A stretch of DNA of 64,000 bases from Kutzneria viridogrisea (GTDB lineage: Bacteria; Actinomycetota; Actinomycetes; Mycobacteriales; Pseudonocardiaceae), in contig JACJID010000001.1 of assembly GCA_014138725.1 (NCBI GenBank), positions 62,001-126,000 of the forward strand. Direction: 5' to 3'. The position numbers and the translations under genes were made by a program. Under the pieces are notes generated by a model. The model was not told where the DNA came from and ran no database searches. It was given only the letters and a program-made list of their open reading frames with translations. Below, in pieces: positions 1 through 13,380 of this stretch. Positions within the stretch are counted from its first letter, which is position 1, and each line of letters opens with the position of its first letter.

Positions 1-1048
1 CCACGCGGAGGTCTGCTCGCCCGGCGAGCTGGCCACCGCGCTGGACGCGGGCTTCCCCGCCGCCGAGGTGCTCTACACCGGCCCCGGCAAGCGCGACCAG
101 GACGTCACCGAGGCCGTCAAGTCCGGGGTTCGACTGTTCTCGGTGGACAGTCCACACGGGATTGATCAGCTCGATTCGGCCGCCGCCGCACAGGGTGTCA
201 CGGTGCGCAGCCTGGTTCGGGTCAACGACCTGAGCCCGGTGCCCGGCCAGGGCCTGACGATGACCGGGGTGGCCTCGCAGTTCGGTGCCGACGCGGACTG
301 GGTGCTGGCCGAGCCCGAGCGCTTCGGCGCCAGGGACCACGTCCTGCCGGCGGGGTACCACCTCTACATGGGCACCAACCTCACCGAGTCCGACGCACTG
401 CTCGCGCAGTTCCGGCAGTCGGCGAGCACCGCGCGCTGGCTCGCCGAGACCACCGGCACCGCCGTGCAGGTGCTGGACCTGGGCGGCGGCTTCGGTGCCC
501 CGTTCGCCAAGGCGGGCGTGCTGCCCAGGTTCGACGGCCTGGCCGAGCGGATCGCCGACCTGCTGGACGAGACCTTTCCCGGTTGGCGTGCGGGCAGTCC
601 CGTCGTGGCCTTCGAGTCGGGGCGCCACCTCGTCGCCACCAGCGGCACGCTCTACACGCGGGTGCTGGACGTCAAGCGCTCGCACGGCAGGGACGTGCTG
701 GTGCTGGAGTCGGGCATCAACCACCTGGGCGGCATGTCCGGGCTGCGCAGACTGCCGCCGATCACCCCCGACGTGCTGGCCGCCGAGGGCGTTGGCGAGC
801 CGCTGACCGGCGCGATCGTCGCCGGGCCGCTGTGCACCCCGTTGGACACCTGGTCGCACGCGGCGAGCCTGCCCGCGGTGCGCCCCGGCGACCTCGTGTC
901 GGTGCCCAACGTGGGCGCCTACGGGCTGTCCGCCAGCCTGCTGGCCTTCCTCGGCCACCCGGCGCCGGTCGAGGCGGTCCGCGAAGGCGGCCGGATCACC
1001 GACGTGTCCCGCTTGCACCTCCACCGACAAGACCTGAACAGGATGTGA
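1..1048 (+). CDS. Fold-III PLP-dependent decarboxylase (ornithine/DAP decarboxylase-like), 5' partial
   Basis: Reading is open from base 2 to the stop at 1046-1048, so the gene begins upstream of the window; about 348 residues are visible. They match the alanine-racemase-fold decarboxylases: CSPGEL near the start, the glycine loop GGGFG that binds the PLP phosphate, and GPLCTPLD near the C-terminus, the CxxxD element that completes the active site across the dimer. The PLP-binding lysine should lie upstream of the window. Relatives include lysA and ornithine decarboxylases, and also BtrK and VinO, which decarboxylate amino acids bound to a carrier protein. The ACP gene starts 6 bp downstream and a BtrH-like domain lies further along the operon, so I infer a carrier-bound substrate; the amino acid is unknown. 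Family assignment is firm, substrate is inference. Confidence 0.85.
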   Translation, partial: HAEVCSPGELATALDAGFPAAEVLYTGPGKRDQDVTEAVKSGVRLFSVDSPHGIDQLDSAAAAQGVTVRSLVRVNDLSPVPGQGLTMTGVASQFGADADWVLAEPERFGARDHVLPAGYHLYMGTNLTESDALLAQFRQSASTARWLAETTGTAVQVLDLGGGFGAPFAKAGVLPRFDGLAERIADLLDETFPGWRAGSPVVAFESGRHLVATSGTLYTRVLDVKRSHGRDVLVLESGINHLGGMSGLRRLPPITPDVLAAEGVGEPLTGAIVAGPLCTPLDTWSHAASLPAVRPGDLVSVPNVGAYGLSASLLAFLGHPAPVEAVREGGRITDVSRLHLHRQDLNRM

Positions 1049-1054
1049 TCAGCC

Positions 1055-1306
1055 GTGGATGCCAACTTCCCCGCCGTGCTCCAGCCGTTCCTGAAGTACG
1101 CGGGCGGTCAGGAGATCACCGGTGAGTCCCGGTTGCGCGACCTGGGCCTGGACTCGATGCAGTCCATCCAGCTGCTGTTCGCGGTGGAGGACGCCTACCA
1201 CGTGTCCCTGCCCGACGAGCTGCTCACCGACGACACCTTCGCCACCGTGGGCAGCCTCTGGGCGGCCATCGAGTCGGTGCGCCCGGCCGCGCAGGAGGCG
1301 TCGTGA
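1055..1306 (+). CDS. Discrete acyl carrier protein
   Basis: An 83-residue protein that fits a free-standing acyl or peptidyl carrier protein. Serine 34, in the motif LGLDSMQS, is the expected 4'-phosphopantetheine attachment site. The GTG start at 1055 is 6 bp after the decarboxylase stop, and the gene ends inside the start of the next gene (GTGA overlap), so it is translationally coupled on both sides. Its likely job is to carry the amino-acyl substrate that the decarboxylase and the dehydrogenase-like flavoproteins modify, as BtrI or VinL do in their pathways; that role is inferred from context. The phosphopantetheinyl transferase encoded at 3451 is the obvious activating enzyme. Confidence 0.88.
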   Translation: MDANFPAVLQPFLKYAGGQEITGESRLRDLGLDSMQSIQLLFAVEDAYHVSLPDELLTDDTFATVGSLWAAIESVRPAAQEAS

Positions 1307-2439
1307 ACCTGGACGAGCTGTTCGCGGTGACCGCCGAGCACGCCGCGCGCACCGACCGCGAGGCCGCGTTCCCGGTTGAGGCGCTGGATGTCATGCGCGC
1401 CAACGGAATGCTGGGCTTCGTCGTGCCGACCGAGCACGGCGGCGGTGGCGGCTCGGTCACCGAGGTGCTGGACCTGACCCTGCGGCTGGCCCGCGAGGAC
1501 ATGTCCGTGGCGATGATCTTCACCATGCACTGCCAGCAGGCGCTTGCCCTGGTGCGGCACGCCAATCCCGAGCTGGCGGCGCGGGTGCTGCCCCGGCTGG
1601 CCCGCGGTGAGCTGTACCTCGCCTCGGTCACCACCGAGCGGGGCAAGGGCGGCCACCTGCTCAGCTCCGAGTCGGTCGTGCACAGCGACGGCAGCCACCT
1701 CAAGATCGACCGCGACGCGCCGATCGTCACCGGTGGCCCGCACGCCGACGCCTACCTGGTCACGGTGCTCGCCCCGGACGCCACCTCGCCCAGCCAGGTC
1801 TCCCTGGTCTACGCGGAACGGTCCGAAGTGGACGTTGAGGTGCTCGGTGGTTGGCAGCCCCTGGGTATGCGTGCCACCCGCAGCGTGCCGATGCGGCTGA
1901 CCGGCCAGGTCCCGGTGCGCAACCTGGTCGGCGAGCCCGGCGGGTTCCGCGAGATCGTCACCGGCACCTTCGGACCGCTGGCCCACCTGGGTTGGTCGGC
2001 GGCCTGGCTCGGCACGGCGGCCGGTGCGCTGTCCCGCGTGGTGCAGTTCCTGCGCGGCGAGGCCGGCCGCAAGCAGTTCGACACGACCTCCGAGCTGTTG
2101 CTGACCGGCCTCGCCAAGGTGCGTGGTCGGATCGACACCGTGCACTCGTTGCTGCGCAACACATCACGCGTGGTTGAGTCCACTGAGGACCTGACACAAC
2201 CGCCCGTGCAGCTGCTGCTCAACACGCTGAAGATCACCGCCGCCGAGCAGTGCTTCACCGCCGTGGACGAGCTGATCGAGCTGGTAGGCCTGCGGCACGG
2301 CTACCTGACCGGCTCCCCGCTGCGCCTGGAGCAGGCGTTCCGCGACCTGCGCTCGGCCTCGCTCAACTACGGCAACCAGCGGCTGTACCTGGCCAACGGC
2401 ACGTTGTCCCTGCTGGACCAGCAGGTGCGCCTTGTCTGA
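1303..2439 (+). CDS. Acyl-CoA dehydrogenase-like flavoprotein (first of two)
   Basis: A 378-residue protein with the length and overall pattern of the acyl-CoA dehydrogenase superfamily: a helical N-terminal part, a middle beta domain, and a helical C-terminal part from about residue 225 with the typical AWLGTAAGAL segment. I see no YEGT-like motif carrying the usual C-terminal catalytic glutamate, so the enzyme may follow an atypical mechanism or act on a substrate with an already activated C-H bond. Related proteins in secondary metabolism oxidise carrier-protein-bound acyl or amino-acyl groups, for example in methoxymalonyl-ACP and aminomalonyl-ACP formation. The GTG start overlaps the ACP stop by 4 bp, which supports the ACP-bound species as substrate. 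Reaction unknown. Confidence 0.8.
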   Translation: MNLDELFAVTAEHAARTDREAAFPVEALDVMRANGMLGFVVPTEHGGGGGSVTEVLDLTLRLAREDMSVAMIFTMHCQQALALVRHANPELAARVLPRLARGELYLASVTTERGKGGHLLSSESVVHSDGSHLKIDRDAPIVTGGPHADAYLVTVLAPDATSPSQVSLVYAERSEVDVEVLGGWQPLGMRATRSVPMRLTGQVPVRNLVGEPGGFREIVTGTFGPLAHLGWSAAWLGTAAGALSRVVQFLRGEAGRKQFDTTSELLLTGLAKVRGRIDTVHSLLRNTSRVVESTEDLTQPPVQLLLNTLKITAAEQCFTAVDELIELVGLRHGYLTGSPLRLEQAFRDLRSASLNYGNQRLYLANGTLSLLDQQVRLV

Positions 2440-3454
2440 GCAGGCCCGCGAGCTGTGGCGCTCCCTCGGCGAACGGGGCGTGCTGCGCGCCCTGTTCGCC
2501 GAGGGCCCGTCGCGCGAGCAGTTGGGCGGCCTGCTCGCGGAGTTGGACCGCGAGCACCCGGTTGGCGTCGTGCTCTCCGCCTGCGTGCAGCTCGCCACGA
2601 TCCTGCCGATCCTGCGCGGGGAAACGGGTGCCGCCGCCAAGGTGTACGAGTCCGCGCTGTCCGGTGCGGCCGTGCTCGCGCTCGCCGCGACCGACGCCGC
2701 CGCGGCCGGGTCCGACCTGACCTCGTTGGGCACCAAGGCCGAGCTCGCCGAGGACCACCTGGTCCTCACCGGGGCCAAGCGGTGGATCACCAACGCCTGC
2801 ACCGCCGACCACGTGCTGGTGCTCGCCAGGCACCGGCCTGCCGACCACTTCACGAGCTTCCTGTGGGTGCTCGTCCCGGTGACGGCACCCGGTGTGCGCG
2901 TGGAACCGGCCAGTGGCGGGCTGTTCGCCGGGTCCGGGGTCGGCCACCTGGAGTTCGACCAGGTCCGGCTGGACCGCGAGCACGTGGTGGGCGGGGTCGG
3001 CCGGGGCATGGTGTCCTTCGGACGACATGTCACCACCGAACGGCTCGCCGGTGGGCTGTGGGCTGCGGCGATGTGCCGCCGGGTGCTTGCCGACACGCTG
3101 AAGTCCCTGTGCGAGCGGCAGTTGGGCGGAAGTCCCATGTGGACGAACGAGGCGATCCGGCACCGCTTCGCGCGCTGCCTGGTGGAGACCCGCCGCATCG
3201 AGGCGATGTGCGGGCAGGTCGAGCAGTGGTCCCTGCTGGGCAGCATGGTGCTCAAGGTCTCCGTGGCCGAGAGCCTGGACCTGGTGCTCACCGAGTGCGC
3301 GCAGTTGGCCGGTGCCGAGGCGTTCGCCGAGGGCGGGCTCGCCCAGCTGCGGGCGGAGATCGGCATGTTCGGCATCGCGGGCGGTGCTTCCGGCGCGATG
3401 CTCGCGGGCATCGCCGAGCACGCCCACGACCTGTTGGGGCTGCGGGCCGGATGA
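2432..3454 (+). CDS. Acyl-CoA dehydrogenase-like flavoprotein (second of two)
   Basis: A 340-residue acyl-CoA-dehydrogenase-fold protein, somewhat shorter than the usual 380. The superfamily pattern is clear in the middle domain: ALAATDAAAAGSDLTSL for flavin/substrate contacts, then the segment around KRWITNACTADHVLVLAR. The C-terminus reads MFGIAGGASGAM where many members carry a glutamate-containing segment, so the catalytic base is not obvious. It starts at TTG 2432, inside the end of the preceding gene (8 bp overlap), and ends in an ATGA overlap with the phosphopantetheinyl transferase. The two flavoproteins may form a heteromeric pair or catalyse successive steps; I cannot tell which. 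Confidence 0.75.
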   Translation: MSEQARELWRSLGERGVLRALFAEGPSREQLGGLLAELDREHPVGVVLSACVQLATILPILRGETGAAAKVYESALSGAAVLALAATDAAAAGSDLTSLGTKAELAEDHLVLTGAKRWITNACTADHVLVLARHRPADHFTSFLWVLVPVTAPGVRVEPASGGLFAGSGVGHLEFDQVRLDREHVVGGVGRGMVSFGRHVTTERLAGGLWAAAMCRRVLADTLKSLCERQLGGSPMWTNEAIRHRFARCLVETRRIEAMCGQVEQWSLLGSMVLKVSVAESLDLVLTECAQLAGAEAFAEGGLAQLRAEIGMFGIAGGASGAMLAGIAEHAHDLLGLRAG

Positions 3455-4077
3455 GCAGCACCTGGGTCGCCGACACCGTCAAGCTGGCCTTCGCCAGGGT
3501 GACGGAGACCAGTACTCGCCTTGCCACCGAAGAAGACCGCAGGGCAGGGGCGGAACAGGCCGCGTGGCGCCAACGCGAGTACCTGGCCGCCAGGGCCCTG
3601 CTGCGCGGACTGCTCACCGAGCTCGCCGACCTGGCGGCGGCGCGGGCGAGCCTGTCCGCCGACGAGGCCGGTCGCCCGTTCCTGCTTGGGCGGCCGGACC
3701 TCGCCGTCAGTCTGTCCCATGAGGACGGTTGGGTGGCCGCGGCCGTGGCGGTGGGGCAGGGCGCGCGGGTCGGGGTGGACGTGCAGGTGCCGGTGCAGGG
3801 CACGGACCTGTCGCTGATCAACCGCTGTTGCGGCCCCAGGGCGCGTGCCGAGCTTGCGGCCATGCCCGGTGAGCGCCGCGATCACGAGTTCGCCTGGATC
3901 TGGAGCGTGCAGGAGGCATGCGTGAAGGCAGAGGGCACCGGGCTGGCCGGTCGTCCGTGGACGGTCCCCGTCGAGGTCGGCGGCACGGCCGGTCGCTGGG
4001 GCGACTACCACTGGCGCAGCCTGCGCGACAGGGCGCCGATCCCGCTCAGCTGCGCCTACCGGCAGGTGGGCGGATGA
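3451..4077 (+). CDS. 4'-phosphopantetheinyl transferase (Sfp-like)
   Basis: A 208-residue protein that transfers the phosphopantetheine arm of coenzyme A to carrier-protein serines. The two Sfp-family motifs are visible: RVGVDVQ, whose Asp110 binds magnesium, and WSVQEACVKAEGTGL (about residues 151-165), which matches the WxxKEAxxKxxGxGL element with Glu155 and Lys159 in place. The first lysine of the usual KEA is glutamine here. It is coupled to both neighbours by ATGA overlaps. Natural targets are the ACP at 1055 and the PCP inside the protein at 6635. A cluster-linked transferase is common in NRPS operons and suggests the cluster is self-sufficient. Confidence 0.9.
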   Translation: MSSTWVADTVKLAFARVTETSTRLATEEDRRAGAEQAAWRQREYLAARALLRGLLTELADLAAARASLSADEAGRPFLLGRPDLAVSLSHEDGWVAAAVAVGQGARVGVDVQVPVQGTDLSLINRCCGPRARAELAAMPGERRDHEFAWIWSVQEACVKAEGTGLAGRPWTVPVEVGGTAGRWGDYHWRSLRDRAPIPLSCAYRQVGG

Positions 4078-6638
4078 CCGCGGCGCCGCAACCAGAACTG
4101 GCCGGGCTGAGCTGTTACACCGGCAGCCTCGCGGGCTACCTGGACGGTGAGCCGGTCGACGCCGCCGAGTTGCTGGCGAACTCGATCAGGCTGGCCGTGC
4201 GCATCGACCTGCCCGAGGGGGCGCTGGCCTTCTCCCACCACAGGTTCCCGCTCAACCGGCTGCCCAACGGTGATCAGCTGCACTACGCCGCCGAGGCCGA
4301 CCCGCAGCGCGCCCTCGCCGCGATCACCGCCGAGCTGAGCAGGCACGGACGTGTGATCGTGGTGGTGGACAACGCCGAACTGCCCTGGTCGCCCTCCTAC
4401 GGGGTCGGGCCGAGCGCTCCGCACTGGCTGCTGCTGTCCACCAGGGAGGAGGACAAGTGGCACGTGGTGGACCCGTTCAGCGGGCTGCTGCCGGCCGGGG
4501 AACAGCACCCGTTCACCGGCTGGCTGTCCACCGAGTCCTTGCTGGCGGCCCTCGCCCCGCGCGACTGGGCGCCAGAACAGTTGCGCCGCAACGAACTCGC
4601 CTTCGGACTGCCCGTGCCCGTTGCCGGATCGGGGCTGACCTGGCTGGGCCGGGTCCAGGCCACGCGGCAGGCCGAGGACCCGTTGCCCGGCAACTGGCTC
4701 ACCGGCTGCGACCAGGTGCTGCCCTTCCTCATCGGCCACCTGGAGCGGCGCCTGGCCGAGAGCGGTCCGCTGCTGGACGACCTGTGGGCCGCCGCCCAAC
4801 ACCACGTGTTCCGGCACCGCTGGCTCGGTGAGCGCGCGGGCGTGCTCGGTGACCTCGCCGGGGCGGCCCGGCACGAGTCCGCCGCCCAGGCCTGGGCCAG
4901 CCTGCCCAAGGCCCTGCGCTTCGCCGTGGAGTCGGCCTCGCGCGGACGGCCCAGGGCCACGCTCGTGCGCACCACGCTGAACCACCTGCTGGCACTGGAA
5001 ACCCCACCCGCCCCCGCCTACCACGCCGTGTCACACCACACGCCGATCTCCACCCGTGATCCGGAAGGACCTGCCATGCCCACCCGCACCCTCTACGACT
5101 GGTTCCTCAACTCCGCGACGCAGCACCCGGACAACACCGCGATCGAGGTGAGCACCCAGTCGCTGACCTACGCGGAGCTCAGGGCAGCGGTGGAACGCCT
5201 GTCCGGGGCTATGGTGGAGGTGCTGGGCCGCACCCCGACCAGGGTCGGCCTGCTCACCTCGCGCAGCCTCGCCGGGTACGTCGGATACCTTGCCGCGCAA
5301 CGACTCGGCGCCGCCTGCGTACCGCTGAACTCGGCCGCCCCCGCCGTGCGCAACCTGACGATCACCACCGAGGCCGAGCTGGACCTGACCCTGGTGGACG
5401 ACACCTCGGGCGACGGGCTGGCCGAGTACCGGCGCGACTGCGGCATCGCCCTGCTGGACCTGACCGGGGACCGGGTGCGCGAGCTGACCTCGCCCAGCCG
5501 TGAGTACAAGGAGACCGAGGTCGTGCCGCGCGGGGCCGAGGACGTGGCGTACATCATCTTCACCAGCGGCACCACCGGCAAGCCCAAGGGCGTGCCCACC
5601 ACACAGTCCAATGTGGACGCGTTTCTGGCCGAGGTGATCGAGCGCTACACCCTGCTGCCCACCAGCCGGGTCTCGCAGACCTTCGAGATGTCCTTCGACG
5701 GCTCCATCGTGGAGATCTTCGGCACCTGGGGCTCCGGCGGCGCGCTGTGCGTCGCCCAGCACGGGGACGTGTTCACCCCGGTGAAGTTCGTCAAGGCCAA
5801 GCAGTTGACGCACTGGATGTCGGTGCCCTCGCTGATCTCCTTCGCCACCAGGCTGCGCGCGCTGGCCCCGGGCAGCATGCCCACCCTGACCGGCAGCATG
5901 TTCGGCGGCGAGGCGCTGACCATGGAGCAGGCCGAGGCCTGGTCGGCGGCGGCGCCCAGCACGCGGATCCTCAACTGCTACGGGCCCACCGAGACCACGG
6001 TGACCGTCACCGGCTACGAGGTGCCGCTGGACGGCAGCCAGCAGGAGACCTCCAACCGCACGATCCCGATCGGGGACGTGTACCCGCGCATGGAGAGCGT
6101 GCTGCTGGACGCGAACCTGCGCCCGGTGGACGACGGGGAGCTGTGCGTGCGCGGCCCGCAGCGCTTCCCCGGCTACCTGGACCCGGCCGAGAACGCGGGC
6201 CGGTTCGTCTCCTTCGACGGGGTGCAGGGCGAGCTGTTCACCGGCGGCGCCCCGCTGACCGAGAAGCACTGGTACCGCACGGGCGACCGGGTGCGCCGCG
6301 AGCACGGCACGTTGGTCCACTTGGGACGGATCGACGAGCAGGTCAAGGTGCGCGGCAACCGGGTGGAGCTGGGCGAGATCGAGTCGGTGCTGCGCAGGCA
6401 CCCGGCCATCGCCGAGGTCGTGGTGCTCACGATCAGGGGCGCGGACGGGGAGATCGACCTGTACGCGGTCTACACCGGGGGCAAGGTCAGCGACGCGGAG
6501 TTCGCCGGTCTGGTCGAGGGCCTGCCCACCTACATGCACCCGCGCGGCTACCACCACCGCGAGGAGATCCCGCTGACCACGGTCGGCAAGGTGGATCGCA
6601 AGCTGCTCACCGACCAGTTCGTGGCGGTCGCCCGATGA
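4074..6638 (+). CDS. BtrH-like (C39-fold) domain fused to NRPS adenylation domain
   Basis: An 854-residue protein in two parts. Residues 1-330 resemble the BtrH N-terminal/peptidase-C39-like family: a candidate nucleophile Cys14 (LSCYTGSL), His117 (SAPHWLLL) and Asp133 (HVVDPFSG), followed by a helical stretch. BtrH transfers an acyl group from an ACP to an amine in butirosin biosynthesis. Residues 335-854 are a complete adenylation domain: FTSGTTGKPKG (near 496), SFDGSIVEI, NCYGPTETT (near 633), RIDEQVKVRGNRVELGEIE (near 750) and the catalytic lysine in TTVGKVDRK (near 838). It ends right after that core with no carrier domain, so it must load a carrier in trans. The Asp of SFDGS fits alpha-amino-acid activation. 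An in-frame GGAAGGA plus ATG at 5076 could start the adenylation domain alone. The start at 4074 overlaps the previous stop. Adenylation call is firm; the BtrH relation rests on motif spacing. Confidence 0.85.
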   Translation: MTAAPQPELAGLSCYTGSLAGYLDGEPVDAAELLANSIRLAVRIDLPEGALAFSHHRFPLNRLPNGDQLHYAAEADPQRALAAITAELSRHGRVIVVVDNAELPWSPSYGVGPSAPHWLLLSTREEDKWHVVDPFSGLLPAGEQHPFTGWLSTESLLAALAPRDWAPEQLRRNELAFGLPVPVAGSGLTWLGRVQATRQAEDPLPGNWLTGCDQVLPFLIGHLERRLAESGPLLDDLWAAAQHHVFRHRWLGERAGVLGDLAGAARHESAAQAWASLPKALRFAVESASRGRPRATLVRTTLNHLLALETPPAPAYHAVSHHTPISTRDPEGPAMPTRTLYDWFLNSATQHPDNTAIEVSTQSLTYAELRAAVERLSGAMVEVLGRTPTRVGLLTSRSLAGYVGYLAAQRLGAACVPLNSAAPAVRNLTITTEAELDLTLVDDTSGDGLAEYRRDCGIALLDLTGDRVRELTSPSREYKETEVVPRGAEDVAYIIFTSGTTGKPKGVPTTQSNVDAFLAEVIERYTLLPTSRVSQTFEMSFDGSIVEIFGTWGSGGALCVAQHGDVFTPVKFVKAKQLTHWMSVPSLISFATRLRALAPGSMPTLTGSMFGGEALTMEQAEAWSAAAPSTRILNCYGPTETTVTVTGYEVPLDGSQQETSNRTIPIGDVYPRMESVLLDANLRPVDDGELCVRGPQRFPGYLDPAENAGRFVSFDGVQGELFTGGAPLTEKHWYRTGDRVRREHGTLVHLGRIDEQVKVRGNRVELGEIESVLRRHPAIAEVVVLTIRGADGEIDLYAVYTGGKVSDAEFAGLVEGLPTYMHPRGYHHREEIPLTTVGKVDRKLLTDQFVAVAR

Positions 6639-8944
6639 CCGCGGCGACTGCCATGCAGGAGGCCCTCTGGTGGGTGCACCAGCGGGCGAAGAACAAGTCC
6701 GTCTACAACCTCACCTGGCGACTGGGCTGCGACAAGGCCCCGGACCTCGAGGCGCTCGGCCTCGCCTGGCAGGCGGTGGTGGACCGGCACGAGGCGTTGC
6801 GGACCTCGGTGGTGCAGCGCGAGGGCGTGATCGAACTCGTGGTGCGGCCGGAACTAGCCGTGCAGGTGCAGCTGGTCGAGGTGGACGAGGCCACGCCGGA
6901 GCTGCTGAGGCTGATCGCCGAGGAGATCCAGGAGCAGGCGATGCACCTGGACCAGGCCCCGCTGGCGCAGCTCACCGTGGTGCGGGTCGGCGAGGTGCAC
7001 GAACTGCTGCTGACGGTGCACCACGTGGTGCTCGACGGCTGGGCGAACCAGTTGCTGGTCAGCGAGCTGTCCTCGGCCTACGAGGCGGCCTGCCAGGGGC
7101 GCAAGCCGGAGTTCGCGACCGAGGCCGTGCCGTTCAGCGCGTACGCCCAGGAGTGCGCACAGGCCCGCGACGCGGGCAAGTGGCAGGCGAGCCTGGACCA
7201 CTGGCGCAAGACCTTGGACGGCGCGGTGTCCACGACTGTCGCCGCGGACCGGCACAACCTGGCCGGGACCGGGGCTCCGGGCACGACCCTGCGCTACGCG
7301 CTCAGCGACGAGGCGGTGGCCGGGGTCGGCGAGCTGACCAAGGCCACGTTCGCCACGCCCTTCGTGGTCGCGCTGGCGGCTTTGCAGATCGTGTTGGCAC
7401 GCGGCGGTGCGGGGGAGGACGTGGCGCTGGGTGTGGTGGTGGCCAACCGCATGTCCCAGCGCGACCAGGAACTCATGGGTTACACGGCCAACCTGTGCAT
7501 CGCCCGCGCCACGGTGACCGGGGCCGACACGGTGCTGGACGTGGTGGGCCGCGCGCGAGACGCGATGTGGACCATGCTCGCGCACCAGACCGTGCCCTAC
7601 CCGGCGGTGTTCGGGGCGCTGACCGAGTCCGCGCAGGCGATGTTGCGCGATTCGGCCCCGCTGCTGCTGAACTACCTGGGCCCGATCGGCAACGGGCTGT
7701 CCCTCGGTGACGTTCCGATGCAACTGCACCGCTCGCCGAACCGGGCGGCACGCGCGGATATCGCCGTGGCGATGTGGGAAACCCCTGACGGGTTCATGAC
7801 CGAGATCGAGTACAACACCGGCCGTTACGACCGGGAAACCGTGCTGCGGCTCATGGAGGACATCGACACTGTGCTGTCCGCACCCGGCGCGACCGCGGTG
7901 TCCGAACTGGACCTGGGCACGCGCTCGGTCGCGGGCTACGTCGACCACCAGGCCAAGCCGGTGACCACTGGGGCCGCGCTGCCCGAGTCCGCGGCGGCCG
8001 AGCAGGTCTCACGGGTGTGGGAGCAGGTGCTGGGTGAGCCGCCCGCCGAACCCGACGAGGACTTCTTCGCGCAGGGCGGACGTTCGCTCAAGGTGCTGCA
8101 ACTGGCCTCGGCCGTGCGCGAGGAGACCGGTACCGAGCTGGACCTGGTGCGGTGGCTGGCCGAGCCCACCCCGCGGCGGCTCGTGGAGCAGGTCGCCAGC
8201 ACCGCGGGCGGCCAGGACGCCAGCACGCTGGTGGTGCTGCGCGAGAGCGTGGACGGCGGCCCGCACCTGCACCTGCTGCCCGGCGCGGGCGGCGGTCCGC
8301 ACGACTACCGCGCACTGCTGGCGGCCCTGCCCGCGCACTGGCGGGTCACCGCATCCCAGGAGCGGCGCCCGTTCGGGTCGGTGGCCGAGATGGCCGCGGC
8401 CTACCGCGCCGATCTGGACGCCGCCGGGGCCCGGCCCGATCTGCTCGGCGGCTGGTCCATGGGCGGCCAGATCGCGTTCGAGCTGGCCAGGGGCTACCCC
8501 GTGCCGGTCCCGCTCGTGCTGATCGACTCCGCGCCCCCGGTGGGTTACGACTTCGGCGCCGACACCGACTCACTGCGCTTCGAGGCGTTCGCGACCGGGG
8601 CGTTCGGCGGCGGCCTGCCGCGCGTGCGTGGAGGCGACTCACTCCGGGTCGCCGCGCTGGCGGCCTGGCTCGCCGCCGACGGACGGGAGGTGTCGGCCAC
8701 CGTGCTCGCCCAGCAGTGGGCCACCTACCGGCGGCACGCCCAGGCCGTGTCCGACTACGTGCCCAGCGGCGGCGCGCCCGGACCTGCGCTCGTGGTGGCC
8801 GCCGACCTCGTGGACGCCCAGGTCGACCAGTGGGCGGAGCGGGTCGGCTCGGTGCGACGGCTGCGCGTCGCGACCGATCACGCCGGTGTCCTGCGTGGCG
8901 ACCCCGTCCGCGCCGTGGCCGAGGCGATGACCCACCTGCTCTGA
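6635..8944 (+). CDS. NRPS module: condensation - PCP - thioesterase
   Basis: A 769-residue protein. Residues 1-430 are a condensation domain with the active-site motif HHVVLDGW (His129, His130, Asp134). A carrier domain follows near 450-530, with Ser484 in FFAQGGRSLKVLQL; the residue before the serine is arginine where histidine or aspartate is more usual. The C-terminus is a type-I thioesterase with nucleophile Ser608 in GGWSMGGQIAFE and a candidate His749 in ATDHAGVL. There is no adenylation domain, so the upstream stand-alone one must supply it. The protein would condense two building blocks and release the product by hydrolysis or cyclisation. Its start overlaps the preceding stop (ATGA), and it is the last gene of the operon. 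Domain calls are firm, product unknown. Confidence 0.92.
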   Translation: MTAATAMQEALWWVHQRAKNKSVYNLTWRLGCDKAPDLEALGLAWQAVVDRHEALRTSVVQREGVIELVVRPELAVQVQLVEVDEATPELLRLIAEEIQEQAMHLDQAPLAQLTVVRVGEVHELLLTVHHVVLDGWANQLLVSELSSAYEAACQGRKPEFATEAVPFSAYAQECAQARDAGKWQASLDHWRKTLDGAVSTTVAADRHNLAGTGAPGTTLRYALSDEAVAGVGELTKATFATPFVVALAALQIVLARGGAGEDVALGVVVANRMSQRDQELMGYTANLCIARATVTGADTVLDVVGRARDAMWTMLAHQTVPYPAVFGALTESAQAMLRDSAPLLLNYLGPIGNGLSLGDVPMQLHRSPNRAARADIAVAMWETPDGFMTEIEYNTGRYDRETVLRLMEDIDTVLSAPGATAVSELDLGTRSVAGYVDHQAKPVTTGAALPESAAAEQVSRVWEQVLGEPPAEPDEDFFAQGGRSLKVLQLASAVREETGTELDLVRWLAEPTPRRLVEQVASTAGGQDASTLVVLRESVDGGPHLHLLPGAGGGPHDYRALLAALPAHWRVTASQERRPFGSVAEMAAAYRADLDAAGARPDLLGGWSMGGQIAFELARGYPVPVPLVLIDSAPPVGYDFGADTDSLRFEAFATGAFGGGLPRVRGGDSLRVAALAAWLAADGREVSATVLAQQWATYRRHAQAVSDYVPSGGAPGPALVVAADLVDAQVDQWAERVGSVRRLRVATDHAGVLRGDPVRAVAEAMTHLL

Positions 8945-9043: not shown

Positions 9044-9054
9044 GGGAGGTGGGC

Positions 9055-9603
9055 GTGGCACTGAGTCAGGCGGAGATCCTGGACGCGGCGACCGGGTTGC
9101 TGGACGAGGTGGGCGTGGACGAGCTGAGCACGCGCAGGCTCGCGGCGCGCCTCGGTGTGCGGGCCGGCGCCCTGTACTGGCACTTCCCCAACAAGCAGGC
9201 GCTGCTGGACGAGCTCGCGGGGCGGGTGCTGCTGCCGCTGCTGGACCTGGACCTCGGGGCGACCGGGCAGTGGGCGCACGGGGTGGCGGCCTTCGGCGGG
9301 GCGCTGCGGGCGGCGATGCTCGCGCACCGGGACGGCGCCCGGCTGGTGGCCACGATGGCCAGGCCGGTGGCGACGGCCCGCACGGCGCACGCGCGGCTGA
9401 TCGACCTGCTGATCGGCGGGGGAGCGCAGCCGGAGCAGGCGGGGTTCGCCGCGGACGCGCTCACCAGCTACGTCAACGGCTACACCCTGGAGGAGCAGGC
9501 CCGCCAGCTGGTGACCCTGTCCGAGGAGCACCGCGAGCGGGCGTTCGCCACCGGGATCCGGGTGGTCGTCAGCGGCCTGCGGGCGGAGTTGTCGTTGCGC
9601 TGA
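9055..9603 (+). CDS. TetR family transcriptional regulator
   Basis: A 182-residue protein with a TetR N-terminal helix-turn-helix: STRRLAARLGVRAGALYWHF spans the recognition helix and the conserved Tyr-x-His-Phe end. The C-terminal part (from about residue 70) resembles the TetR-class C-terminal domain, which often senses small molecules such as antibiotics. I chose GTG 9055 because GGGGGAGG lies 5 bp upstream; GTG 9049 is possible but lies inside that sequence. It follows the NRPS operon in the same direction behind a repeat-rich region, so it may control itself and the operon. Its 3' end overlaps the convergent monooxygenase-like gene by 35 bp. Confidence 0.85.
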   Translation: MALSQAEILDAATGLLDEVGVDELSTRRLAARLGVRAGALYWHFPNKQALLDELAGRVLLPLLDLDLGATGQWAHGVAAFGGALRAAMLAHRDGARLVATMARPVATARTAHARLIDLLIGGGAQPEQAGFAADALTSYVNGYTLEEQARQLVTLSEEHRERAFATGIRVVVSGLRAELSLR

Positions 9604-11922: not shown

Positions 11923-13380
11923 ATGAGCGACAAGTTGCGGAAGTCCAACGGCGTCGAGTTCGCCGTGGCCGACCTGGGGCTGGCCGCGCTCGGCCGGGAC
12001 CAGATCCGGCTGGCGGAGCACGAGATGCCGGGCCTGATGGCCACCCGGCGCGAGTACGCCGAGAGCCAGCCACTCAAGGGGGCGCGCATCGTCGGCTCGC
12101 TGCACATGACCGTGCAGACCGCGGTGCTGATCGAGACCCTGGTCGCGCTGGGCGCACAGGTGCGCTGGGTGTCCTGCAACATCTTCTCCACCCAGGACGA
12201 GGCCGCCGCCGCGGTGGTCGTCGGCGAGGGCACCCCGGAGCAGCCCGCGGGCACCCCGGTGTTCGCCTGGAAGGGCGAGACCCTTGAGGAGTACTGGTGG
12301 TGCACCGACCAGGTGTTCCGCTTCCCCGACGGCCAGCTGGCGAACATGATCGTCGACGACGGCGGGGACGCCACGGTGCTGCTGCACAAGGGTGTGGAGT
12401 TCGAGGCAACCGGCGTGGTGCCCTCTGCGGGGGAGAACGACCCCGAGGAGTACGGCATCCTGCTGCGCACCCTGGCGGCCAGCCTGGCCGAGGACCCGAA
12501 GCGGTTCACCCGCATCGCCGAGCAGATGCGCGGGGTCACCGAGGAGACCACGGCCGGGGTCAACCGGCTCTACCGGCTCGCGGCCGAGGACAAGCTGCTG
12601 TTCCCGGCGATCAACGTCAACGACTCGGTGACCAAGTCGAAGTTCGACAACAAGTACGGCATCAGGCACTCGCTGGCCGATGGCCTCAACCGGGCCACCG
12701 ACGTGATGATCGGCGGCAAGCTGGCCGTGGTCTGCGGCTACGGGGACGTGGGCAAGGGGGCCGCCGACGCGCTGCGCGGCCAGGGCGCCCGCGTGGTGGT
12801 CACCGAGGTGGACCCGATCTGCGCGTTGCAGGCCGCCATGGAGGGGCTGGAGGTCGTACGGCTGGAGGACGTGGTCGAGAAGGGCGACATCTTCATCACC
12901 ACCACCGGCAACTTCAACATCATCATGGCCGAGCACATGGCGCGGATGAAGCACAACGCCATCGTGGGCAACGTGGGCCACTTCGACAACGAGATCGACA
13001 TGGCCGGTCTGGCCAAGGTGCCTGGCATCCGCAAGCGCGAGATCAAGCCTCAGGTGCACGAGTGGGTCTTCCCCGACGGGCACGCGATCCTGGTGCTGTC
13101 CGAGGGCAGGCTGATGAACCTGGGCAACGCCACCGGCCACCCCAGCTTCGTCATGTCCAACTCCTTCACCAACCAGGTGATCGCGCAGATCGAGCTGTTC
13201 ACCAACGTGCGCGGCTACGAGCGTCAGGTCTACCGGCTGCCCAAGCACCTGGACGAGAAGGTGGCCCGGCTGCACCTGGACGCGGTCGGCGCCCGGCTGA
13301 CCACGCTCACCAAGGAGCAGGCCGAGTACATCGGGGTGGACGTGGCCGGGCCGTTCAAGCCCGACCACTACCGCTACTGA
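11923..13380 (+). CDS. ahcY: Adenosylhomocysteinase
   Basis: A 485-residue enzyme that hydrolyses S-adenosylhomocysteine to adenosine and homocysteine, keeping methyltransferases free of product inhibition. Family signatures are plain: [19 protein letters not shown], the NAD-binding loop [20 protein letters not shown], and the C-terminal PFKPDHYRY end whose lysine and tyrosine complete the neighbouring subunit's NAD site. Length is normal for actinobacteria. The start ATG 11923 has AGGTAGGGA just upstream, and the leader carries an SAH riboswitch. The stop overlaps the end of the convergent MFS gene by 7 bp. Confidence 0.98.

Follow-up and report, generated by a model that had tools for sequence, protein, structure and literature searches.

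A candidate portable aspartate cassette, possibly of aziridine type, in a nonribosomal peptide gene cluster of Kutzneria viridogrisea

The window analysed here is a stretch of 64,000 nucleotides from Kutzneria viridogrisea (G000:C1:62001-126000 within a 10.25-Mb genome), and the biosynthetic genes in question lie at its left edge, where a first-pass annotation had described a compact seven-gene operon that joins amino acid chemistry on an acyl carrier protein (ACP) to a small nonribosomal peptide synthetase (NRPS). The seven genes do follow each other almost without space on one strand, with gaps of -8 to +6 nt, but they are not the whole operon: they form the 3' end of an array of 16 co-directional genes, window -10251 to 8944 (G000:C1:51749-70944, + strand), throughout which the intergenic gaps range from -11 to +11 nt. 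The other nine genes were found by extension upstream of base 1, a check that the annotation had itself proposed, and encode, in order, ACP1, an NRPS with condensation (C), adenylation (A) and peptidyl carrier protein (PCP) domains (named CAT), a thioesterase (TE), a short-chain dehydrogenase/reductase (SDR), a ProA-like protein, a second stand-alone carrier (ACP2), a TrpB-like protein, a BtrH-like protein with a C-terminal carrier domain (BtrH1) and a VinN-like ligase (Lig). Six divergent genes lie farther upstream on the opposite strand, encoding an SznF-like protein, a Rieske protein, a protein arginine methyltransferase (PRMT)-like protein, a major facilitator superfamily (MFS) transporter, an adenylation protein (Aad3) and a Streptomyces antibiotic regulatory protein (SARP)-like regulator. 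Genes in the upstream DNA were called by a simple codon-position gene caller; the Pfam scan covered 20 of the 22 cluster genes, and the SARP and MFS genes were identified by eye. For the seven genes at the window edge, Pfam and sequence comparison bear out most of the names given before, namely a fold-III pyridoxal phosphate (PLP) decarboxylase, an ACP, two acyl-CoA dehydrogenase (ACAD)-like proteins, a phosphopantetheinyl transferase (PPTase) and a C-PCP-TE protein:

1..1048, + strand: Dec, 3' part of a fold-III PLP decarboxylase gene (whole gene -163..1048, G000:C1:61837-63048); PF02784/PF00278, best solved match BtrK (2j66, 6e-54)
1055..1306, + strand: ACP3, stand-alone ACP with a GLDSM serine motif; PF00550 and sequence
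1303..2439, + strand: ACAD1, ACAD-fold protein with no Glu at the two usual places, presumed AlnG-like N-oxygenase
2432..3454, + strand: ACAD2, ACAD-like protein with Glu203 in TTERL and a short N-terminal domain
3451..4077, + strand: 4'-phosphopantetheinyl transferase; PF01648, PF17837
4074..5063, + strand: BtrHA_N, predicted acyltransferase domain of the BtrH/CtaG/CcbD/AziU3 fold, from fold and invariant residues; the fusion gene spans 4074..6638
5064..6638, + strand: VinM/DltA-like A domain fused to BtrHA_N, from sequence matches
6635..8944, + strand: C-PCP-TE protein with HHVVLDG and GWSMG motifs; Pfam and sequence

The start of ACAD2 at 2432 is a TTG, the coding score having favoured a GTG at 2480. 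The serine is present in all three stand-alone ACPs and in the carrier domain of CAT, HHxxxDG in both condensation domains and GxSxG in both thioesterases; the ProA-like protein keeps its Cys in PTACNTLE and the TrpB-like protein its Lys in GSHKLN. Since the genome holds stronger ProA and TrpB matches elsewhere, the ProA-like and TrpB-like genes of the cluster are second copies.

The closest solved relative of Lig is VinN (3wvn, 9e-103). In the alignment (offset 16 in 3wvn), D230, K330 and R331 of VinN are kept, F231 is replaced by Tyr and S299 by Thr; we take these five residues to be those that bind the amine and the carboxylate. Among Lig homologues, TExKR is kept in 49 of 51 and the Asp motif in 50 of 51. 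Dec is closest to BtrK, the L-glutamyl-[BtrI ACP] decarboxylase (6e-54, 186 bits), the next sequence family reaching 128 bits; it is thus nearer to BtrK than to the diaminopimelate decarboxylases (at most 128 bits), in a comparison outside which VinO itself lies. Because its nearest relative is carrier-specific, loading, decarboxylation and oxidation of the amino acid probably all take place on the ACP, as had been supposed. The accompanying idea that the operon's own A domain does the loading finds no support: this domain is DltA/VinM-like (best match 8k4r, 278 bits, followed by a linear gramicidin synthetase domain, 265 bits), and by sequence the VinN-type ligase just outside the window appears to be the better candidate. 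According to PMC11284099, the substrate loaded by VinN is 3-methylaspartate and that loaded by FlvN is aspartate; once VinO has decarboxylated the thioester, L-Ala is added by VinM, which can activate L-Ser and Gly as well. Among the listed cluster genes no glutamate mutase was found, and therefore aspartate is assumed as the substrate and beta-alanyl-ACP3 as the product; that Lig and Dec convert Asp to beta-Ala-ACP is, in our view, highly likely. For the same reason 3-methylaspartate was ranked lower as a substrate. A route from glutamate to gamma-aminobutyrate was also ranked lower: although the solved decarboxylase closest to Dec is BtrK, the ligase is of VinN type, and the amine on which AlnG presumably works is a beta-amine.

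The two ACAD-like proteins had been taken as one kind, without an obvious catalytic glutamate, but they are of two kinds, one of them probably an N-oxygenase. The description holds for ACAD1, which has Tyr at the Glu place of medium-chain acyl-CoA dehydrogenase and no Glu at that of isovaleryl-CoA dehydrogenase; it does not hold for ACAD2, in which Glu203 (TTERL) is invariant in 11/11 aligned rows at the isovaleryl-CoA dehydrogenase place, where the Glu is presumably the catalytic one. The best NCBIfam match of ACAD2 is the prolyl-PCP dehydrogenase RedW, below the cut-off, and KtzA, an ACAD-like enzyme that forms a cyclopropane on a carrier, is a precedent for ACAD2 as a cyclase. ACAD1 is 57% identical to a homologue in Streptomyces alanosinicus (L101). 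This homologue is very probably AlnG, since its 89.7% identity to the Streptomyces hirsutus homologue (L082) agrees with the 89% reported for the AlnG homologues of these two species (PMC7347517), and since its neighbours include genes of the SbnA and SbnB families as well as those for a nitrosuccinate lyase and a flavin mononucleotide (FMN) reductase. AlnG is the proposed, unproven N-hydroxylase of carrier-bound diaminopropionate in alanosine biosynthesis (PMC11705231). In an 87-sequence tree, built from 86 of 116 ACAD1 matches plus the window, the aln clade is nested in that of the cassette sequences; ultrafast supports along the path are 98-100, the window's own clade being weaker (87/94). 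AlnG (L101, L080, L081, L082, L085 and L092) appears to be derived from within the aspartate-cassette ACAD1 clade. One scan behind these ACAD1 comparisons used the best 80 of 492 confirmed matches. It is likely, we infer, that ACAD1 N-hydroxylates a carrier-bound amine.

The reading of the large fusion protein as BtrH-like plus adenylation had no backing from the Pfam score, BtrHA_N reaching 17.5 bits against BtrH_N with a cut-off of 29.7, but it agrees with the predicted fold and with an invariant Cys/His/Asp set. The model of BtrHA_N (predicted local distance difference test, pLDDT, 90) best matches AziU3 of azinomycin (8gs1, E 2e-11, template modelling score 0.59), followed by CtaG and CcbD. 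Cys14, His117 and Asp133 are invariant in 18/18 rows, the 16-residue His-Asp spacing is that of CtaG, and the matched structures listed include the CtaG variants C11A, H128A and D144N and the CcbD variant C19S. Likewise, C25, H114 and D126 of BtrH1 are invariant in 20/20 rows. We read both proteins as predicted carrier acyltransferases; the AziU3 match by itself does not prove aziridine chemistry.

Relatives of ACAD1 were found in 46 of 297 genomes of the family (E<=1e-30), many of them without the full cassette, and in 2 of 396 genomes of a phylum sample (E<=1e-60), the Kutzneria genome included. Locus counts refer to 79 ACAD1-anchored loci, which include neither the window nor L060 and L061 (weak matches), L069, L100 and L105 (copies) or L108-L143 (distant); the locus types A, BCD, E, ALN and F are labels of this analysis. 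A search for the gene set across genomes, also proposed in the first-pass annotation, showed that all eight core functions (Lig, Dec, ACP3, ACAD1, ACAD2, BtrHA_N, VinM-like domain and BtrH1, the last counted when its carrier domain matched) occur together in 25 of the 79 loci and at least seven in 28, which is incompatible with chance clustering. ACAD2 is present in 40 of the 42 type A and BCD loci; ACAD1 accompanies it in 41/41 loci, which says little, since the loci were chosen by ACAD1. Flavin reductases were sought with queries from three of the loci, and three matches were confirmed with Pfam: they occur in 0/6 type A, 14/36 BCD and 7/7 E loci (21/49 of cassette type), in 0/6 aln loci and in 0/24 F loci. 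The L101 reductase belongs to another family than those queried, and the six PF01613 matches of the Kutzneria genome all lie outside the cluster.

The core also occurs without SDR-ProA-ACP2-TrpB, and the latter is therefore called an add-on. ProA, ACP2 and TrpB accompany 13 of the 25 full-core loci; ProA and ACP2 lie on one strand and at most 700 bp apart in 19 of 21 copies, the remaining two at 776 and 794 bp, and of seven genomes with all or most of the core and no add-on at the locus, one has a ProA match (E<=1e-60, 37% identity). The window arrangement with C-PCP-TE recurs in six other loci (L024, L025, L026, L035, L064 of Salinispora fenicalii and L065 of Micromonospora deserti), four of which have the SDR. 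As separate observations, type E loci (L041, L042, L043, L063, L091, L094) carry ProA-ACP2-BtrHA_N as a group of its own together with a flavin reductase, ProA and ACP2 not being seen in L041, and TrpB adjoins the PPTase in L042, L043 and L063. Type F loci (L044-L059) hold a reduced Lig-Dec-ACP-ACAD1 set without ACAD2, and by eye NRPS and ABC transporter genes lie near several of them.

In three core-only genomes (G030, G065 and G114), the core lies 2-15 kb from genes for ketosynthase alpha (KSa), chain length factor (CLF) and ACP that share 73-84% identity with the G030 genes; in this type II polyketide synthase (PKS) region, the KSa, cyclase and acyltransferase were checked with Pfam, and the flavin adenine dinucleotide (FAD) oxygenases were identified by eye. 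The identical ACAD1 marks G065 as Kibdelosporangium persicum. This species, which carries two core cassettes in different surroundings (L030 and L031), and the two other genomes share the core near type II PKS genes, a point of likeness to the azicemicin cluster. Ogasawara and Liu in 2009 reportedly described Asp as the source of the azicemicin aziridine, with two adenylating enzymes (one of them Asp-specific), a decarboxylase and extra ACPs. The azicemicins, produced by Kibdelosporangium sp. MJ126-NF4, are type II polyketides that carry an aziridine (PMC4384478). The window cluster, unlike that of azicemicin, is NRPS-based and adds the ProA-like protein, ACP2 and the TrpB-like protein, and no type II PKS gene is among its 22 genes (20 by Pfam, 2 by eye). 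The earlier statement that no described cluster has this set stands for the whole set, for which no paper was found in the open PMC literature, a search covering open PMC papers and so weak evidence of absence; the core, however, recurs by type II PKS genes in Kibdelosporangium, the genus of the azicemicin producer. For alanosine, TAN-950, azicemicin and aziridines, the same literature yielded reviews and a genome announcement.

Other known systems share parts of the array. Like vicenistatin (VinN, VinO, VinL and VinM), it has a VinN-nearest ligase, a carrier-type decarboxylase, a stand-alone ACP and a VinM-like domain; unlike vicenistatin, it lists no glutamate mutase, has two ACAD-like and two BtrH-like proteins, and is joined to an NRPS rather than a PKS. 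With alanosine (aln/ala) it shares ACAD1, but Lig, Dec, ACAD2 and BtrH-like genes are found in 0/6 aln-type loci, where the route runs through diaminopropionate (SbnA and SbnB families, L101). Butirosin BtrI/BtrK/BtrH resembles it in carrier-bound decarboxylation and BtrH-like transfer, whereas the window cluster has a VinN-type ligase in place of BtrJ, has ACAD-like enzymes and lists no aminoglycoside genes. Valanimycin is a precedent for N-N bond formation, a possibility ranked lower as the cluster gives no gene evidence for it. Azinomycin AziU3/U2 is similar in that AziU3 is the best fold match of BtrHA_N, but CtaG and CcbD have this fold and the Cys as well. In a 2025 review, AziU3/U2 acts by sulfate displacement, and the iron enzyme TqaL represents the other enzymatic route to aziridines (PMC12559475). 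Neither route was seen in the cluster, TqaL-like genes being sought by Pfam scan; no sulfotransferase family member is among the 22 genes (20 scanned with Pfam, 2 by eye), and no sequence search was aimed at AziU2.

What was observed directly is the gene content, the families, the conserved residues, the linkage of the genes and the phylogeny. The kind of cassette is known; its setting and its add-on are new. Counting the AlnG-like ACAD1, the Glu of ACAD2 and the core beside type II PKS genes for an aziridine-type cassette, we read the array as a portable aspartate cassette of this type in an NRPS cluster, extended by a ProA/TrpB add-on, and give this overall explanation a probability of about 0.5. 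Lig would load L-aspartate through its side-chain carboxylate onto ACP3, and Dec, of BtrK/VinO type, would strip the alpha-carboxylate to leave beta-alanyl-ACP3. Everything beyond this intermediate, ring and product included, we infer. ACAD1, as an AlnG-like oxygenase using reduced flavin, would hydroxylate the beta-amine to N-hydroxy-beta-Ala-ACP3; the VinM-type A domain and the two BtrH-like acyltransferases would acylate and transfer the unit, with activation of the N-O bond; and ACAD2 would remove the alpha-proton, and either form an aziridine-2-carbonyl thioester by N-C closure or desaturate. In the add-on, the ProA-like enzyme would reduce an acyl thioester on ACP2 to the aldehyde, and the TrpB-like enzyme would join this to an aminoacrylate formed from serine; the unusual amino acid so obtained would go into the peptide assembled by CAT and C-PCP-TE. 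Our confidence in these parts differs: the ACP2-dependent reduction stands at even odds, aziridine formation is possible with the odds slightly against it, and the TrpB step is tentative and rather doubtful. The full sequence of N-hydroxylation by ACAD1, N-O acylation by the VinM-like and BtrH-like proteins, cyclisation by ACAD2 as an enolate-forming enzyme to the aziridine-2-carbonyl thioester, ProA-like reduction off the ACP and TrpB-like joining to serine is unlikely to be right in every step. If true, this electrophilic-nitrogen chemistry would have a polarity opposite to the two enzymatic routes of the review, sulfate displacement by an amine and TqaL. A product with an N-oxidised or aziridine unit is nevertheless more probable than the plain unsaturated or amine-ended peptide suggested before.

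Several points weigh against this explanation. The acidic residues E315, E343 and D348 of ACAD1 are invariant, and its model (pLDDT 91.4) fits the oxygenases TdsC, DszC, KijD3 and DnmZ about as well as it fits true ACADs, so that the predicted fold does not decide between dehydrogenase and oxygenase. N-hydroxylation by AlnG itself is a proposal, and no flavin reductase was found in the window cluster or in the 6 loci of the same type. The VinM match of the fused domain, 8k4r being presumably VinM, outscores that to an ordinary NRPS A domain by a small margin (278 vs 265 bits). The suggested link to azicemicin comes from genus and PKS type, not from azicemicin sequence, and the role of ProA and TrpB is argued from gene linkage, both being missing from many cassette loci.

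Of the other explanations, an N-O heterocycle survives best, though we consider it improbable: ACAD2 would desaturate N-hydroxy-beta-alanyl-ACP, and cyclisation would give an isoxazolin-5-one (or an isoxazoline, if ProA reduces it first), which the TrpB-like enzyme would attach to serine to give a TAN-950- or beta-IA-like isoxazolinyl-alanine. An AlnG-like N-oxygenase, a dehydrogenase with its Glu and a TrpB2-like enzyme with the catalytic Lys motif would suit such a path, and Streptomyces sp. A136 makes an amino acid of this kind (TAN-950, PMC9293202); but there are also cassettes next to type II PKS genes that lack TrpB and ProA, and no gene link to a TAN-950 producer was found. Somewhat less probable still is a ringless hydroxamate, in which the VinM-like enzyme or a BtrH-like protein would N-acylate N-hydroxy-beta-alanine for a metal-binding peptide. 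VinM acylates a beta-amine in vicenistatin (PMC11284099), the cluster has a VinM-like domain, and transporter genes in L053, a relative of type F, by eye resemble siderophore uptake, but ACAD2, so regular in type A and BCD loci, and the PKS context would be left unexplained. The least probable is the path of the first-pass annotation, in which, once glutamate or some other amino acid has been loaded and decarboxylated, both ACAD-like proteins desaturate it, for an unsaturated or amine-ended peptide: the glutamyl-ACP enzyme BtrK as closest solved decarboxylase and RedW as best NCBIfam match of ACAD2 would fit it, but the VinN-type ligase, the AlnG-like ACAD1 and the flavin reductases near relatives do not.

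By sequence, the aspartate cassette read here ties together the vicenistatin beta-amino acid cassette, the presumed alanosine N-hydroxylase and azicemicin-type Kibdelosporangium clusters, and offers a small set of enzymes (ACAD1, ACAD2, the two BtrH-like transferases and the VinM-like domain) for testing the origin of an aspartate-derived aziridine. The recurrent pairing of a ProA-like enzyme with a carrier of its own suggests carrier-linked assembly of unusual amino acids.

Among the divergent genes, a full-length SznF homologue (1.3e-86; G000:C1:49891-51234, - strand, window -12109..-10766) lies beside the Rieske and PRMT-like genes, the latter SznE-like by analogy. With the ligand list of PMC11705231, its heme-oxygenase-like diiron oxidase (HDO) ligands E215, H225, E281, H311, D315 and H318 are kept; in the alignment to 6m9r, the cupin ligands H407, H409 and H448 are replaced by Arg, Ala and Tyr. 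Ligands kept in the one domain and histidines replaced in the other suggest N-hydroxylation of a methylated arginine without nitrosation. Around the related clusters that were examined (L144-L149 and L151), no such homologue was seen in the flanking DNA.

Downstream of the array, a TetR-like gene lies at 9049-9603 and, outside the cluster, window 11923-13380 resembles S-adenosylhomocysteine hydrolase, both named by eye. By eye also, 2-oxoglutarate oxygenase-, ArgG- and formyltransferase-like genes lie at L064 17899-20805 and L065 17925-20829, by the related clusters of Salinispora and Micromonospora, and L144 4983-8146 (G131), about 6 kb from the cluster, holds genes for a methionyl-tRNA synthetase-like protein, a small cupin and a lysine N-oxygenase-like protein, a group similar to a hydrazine synthetase set.

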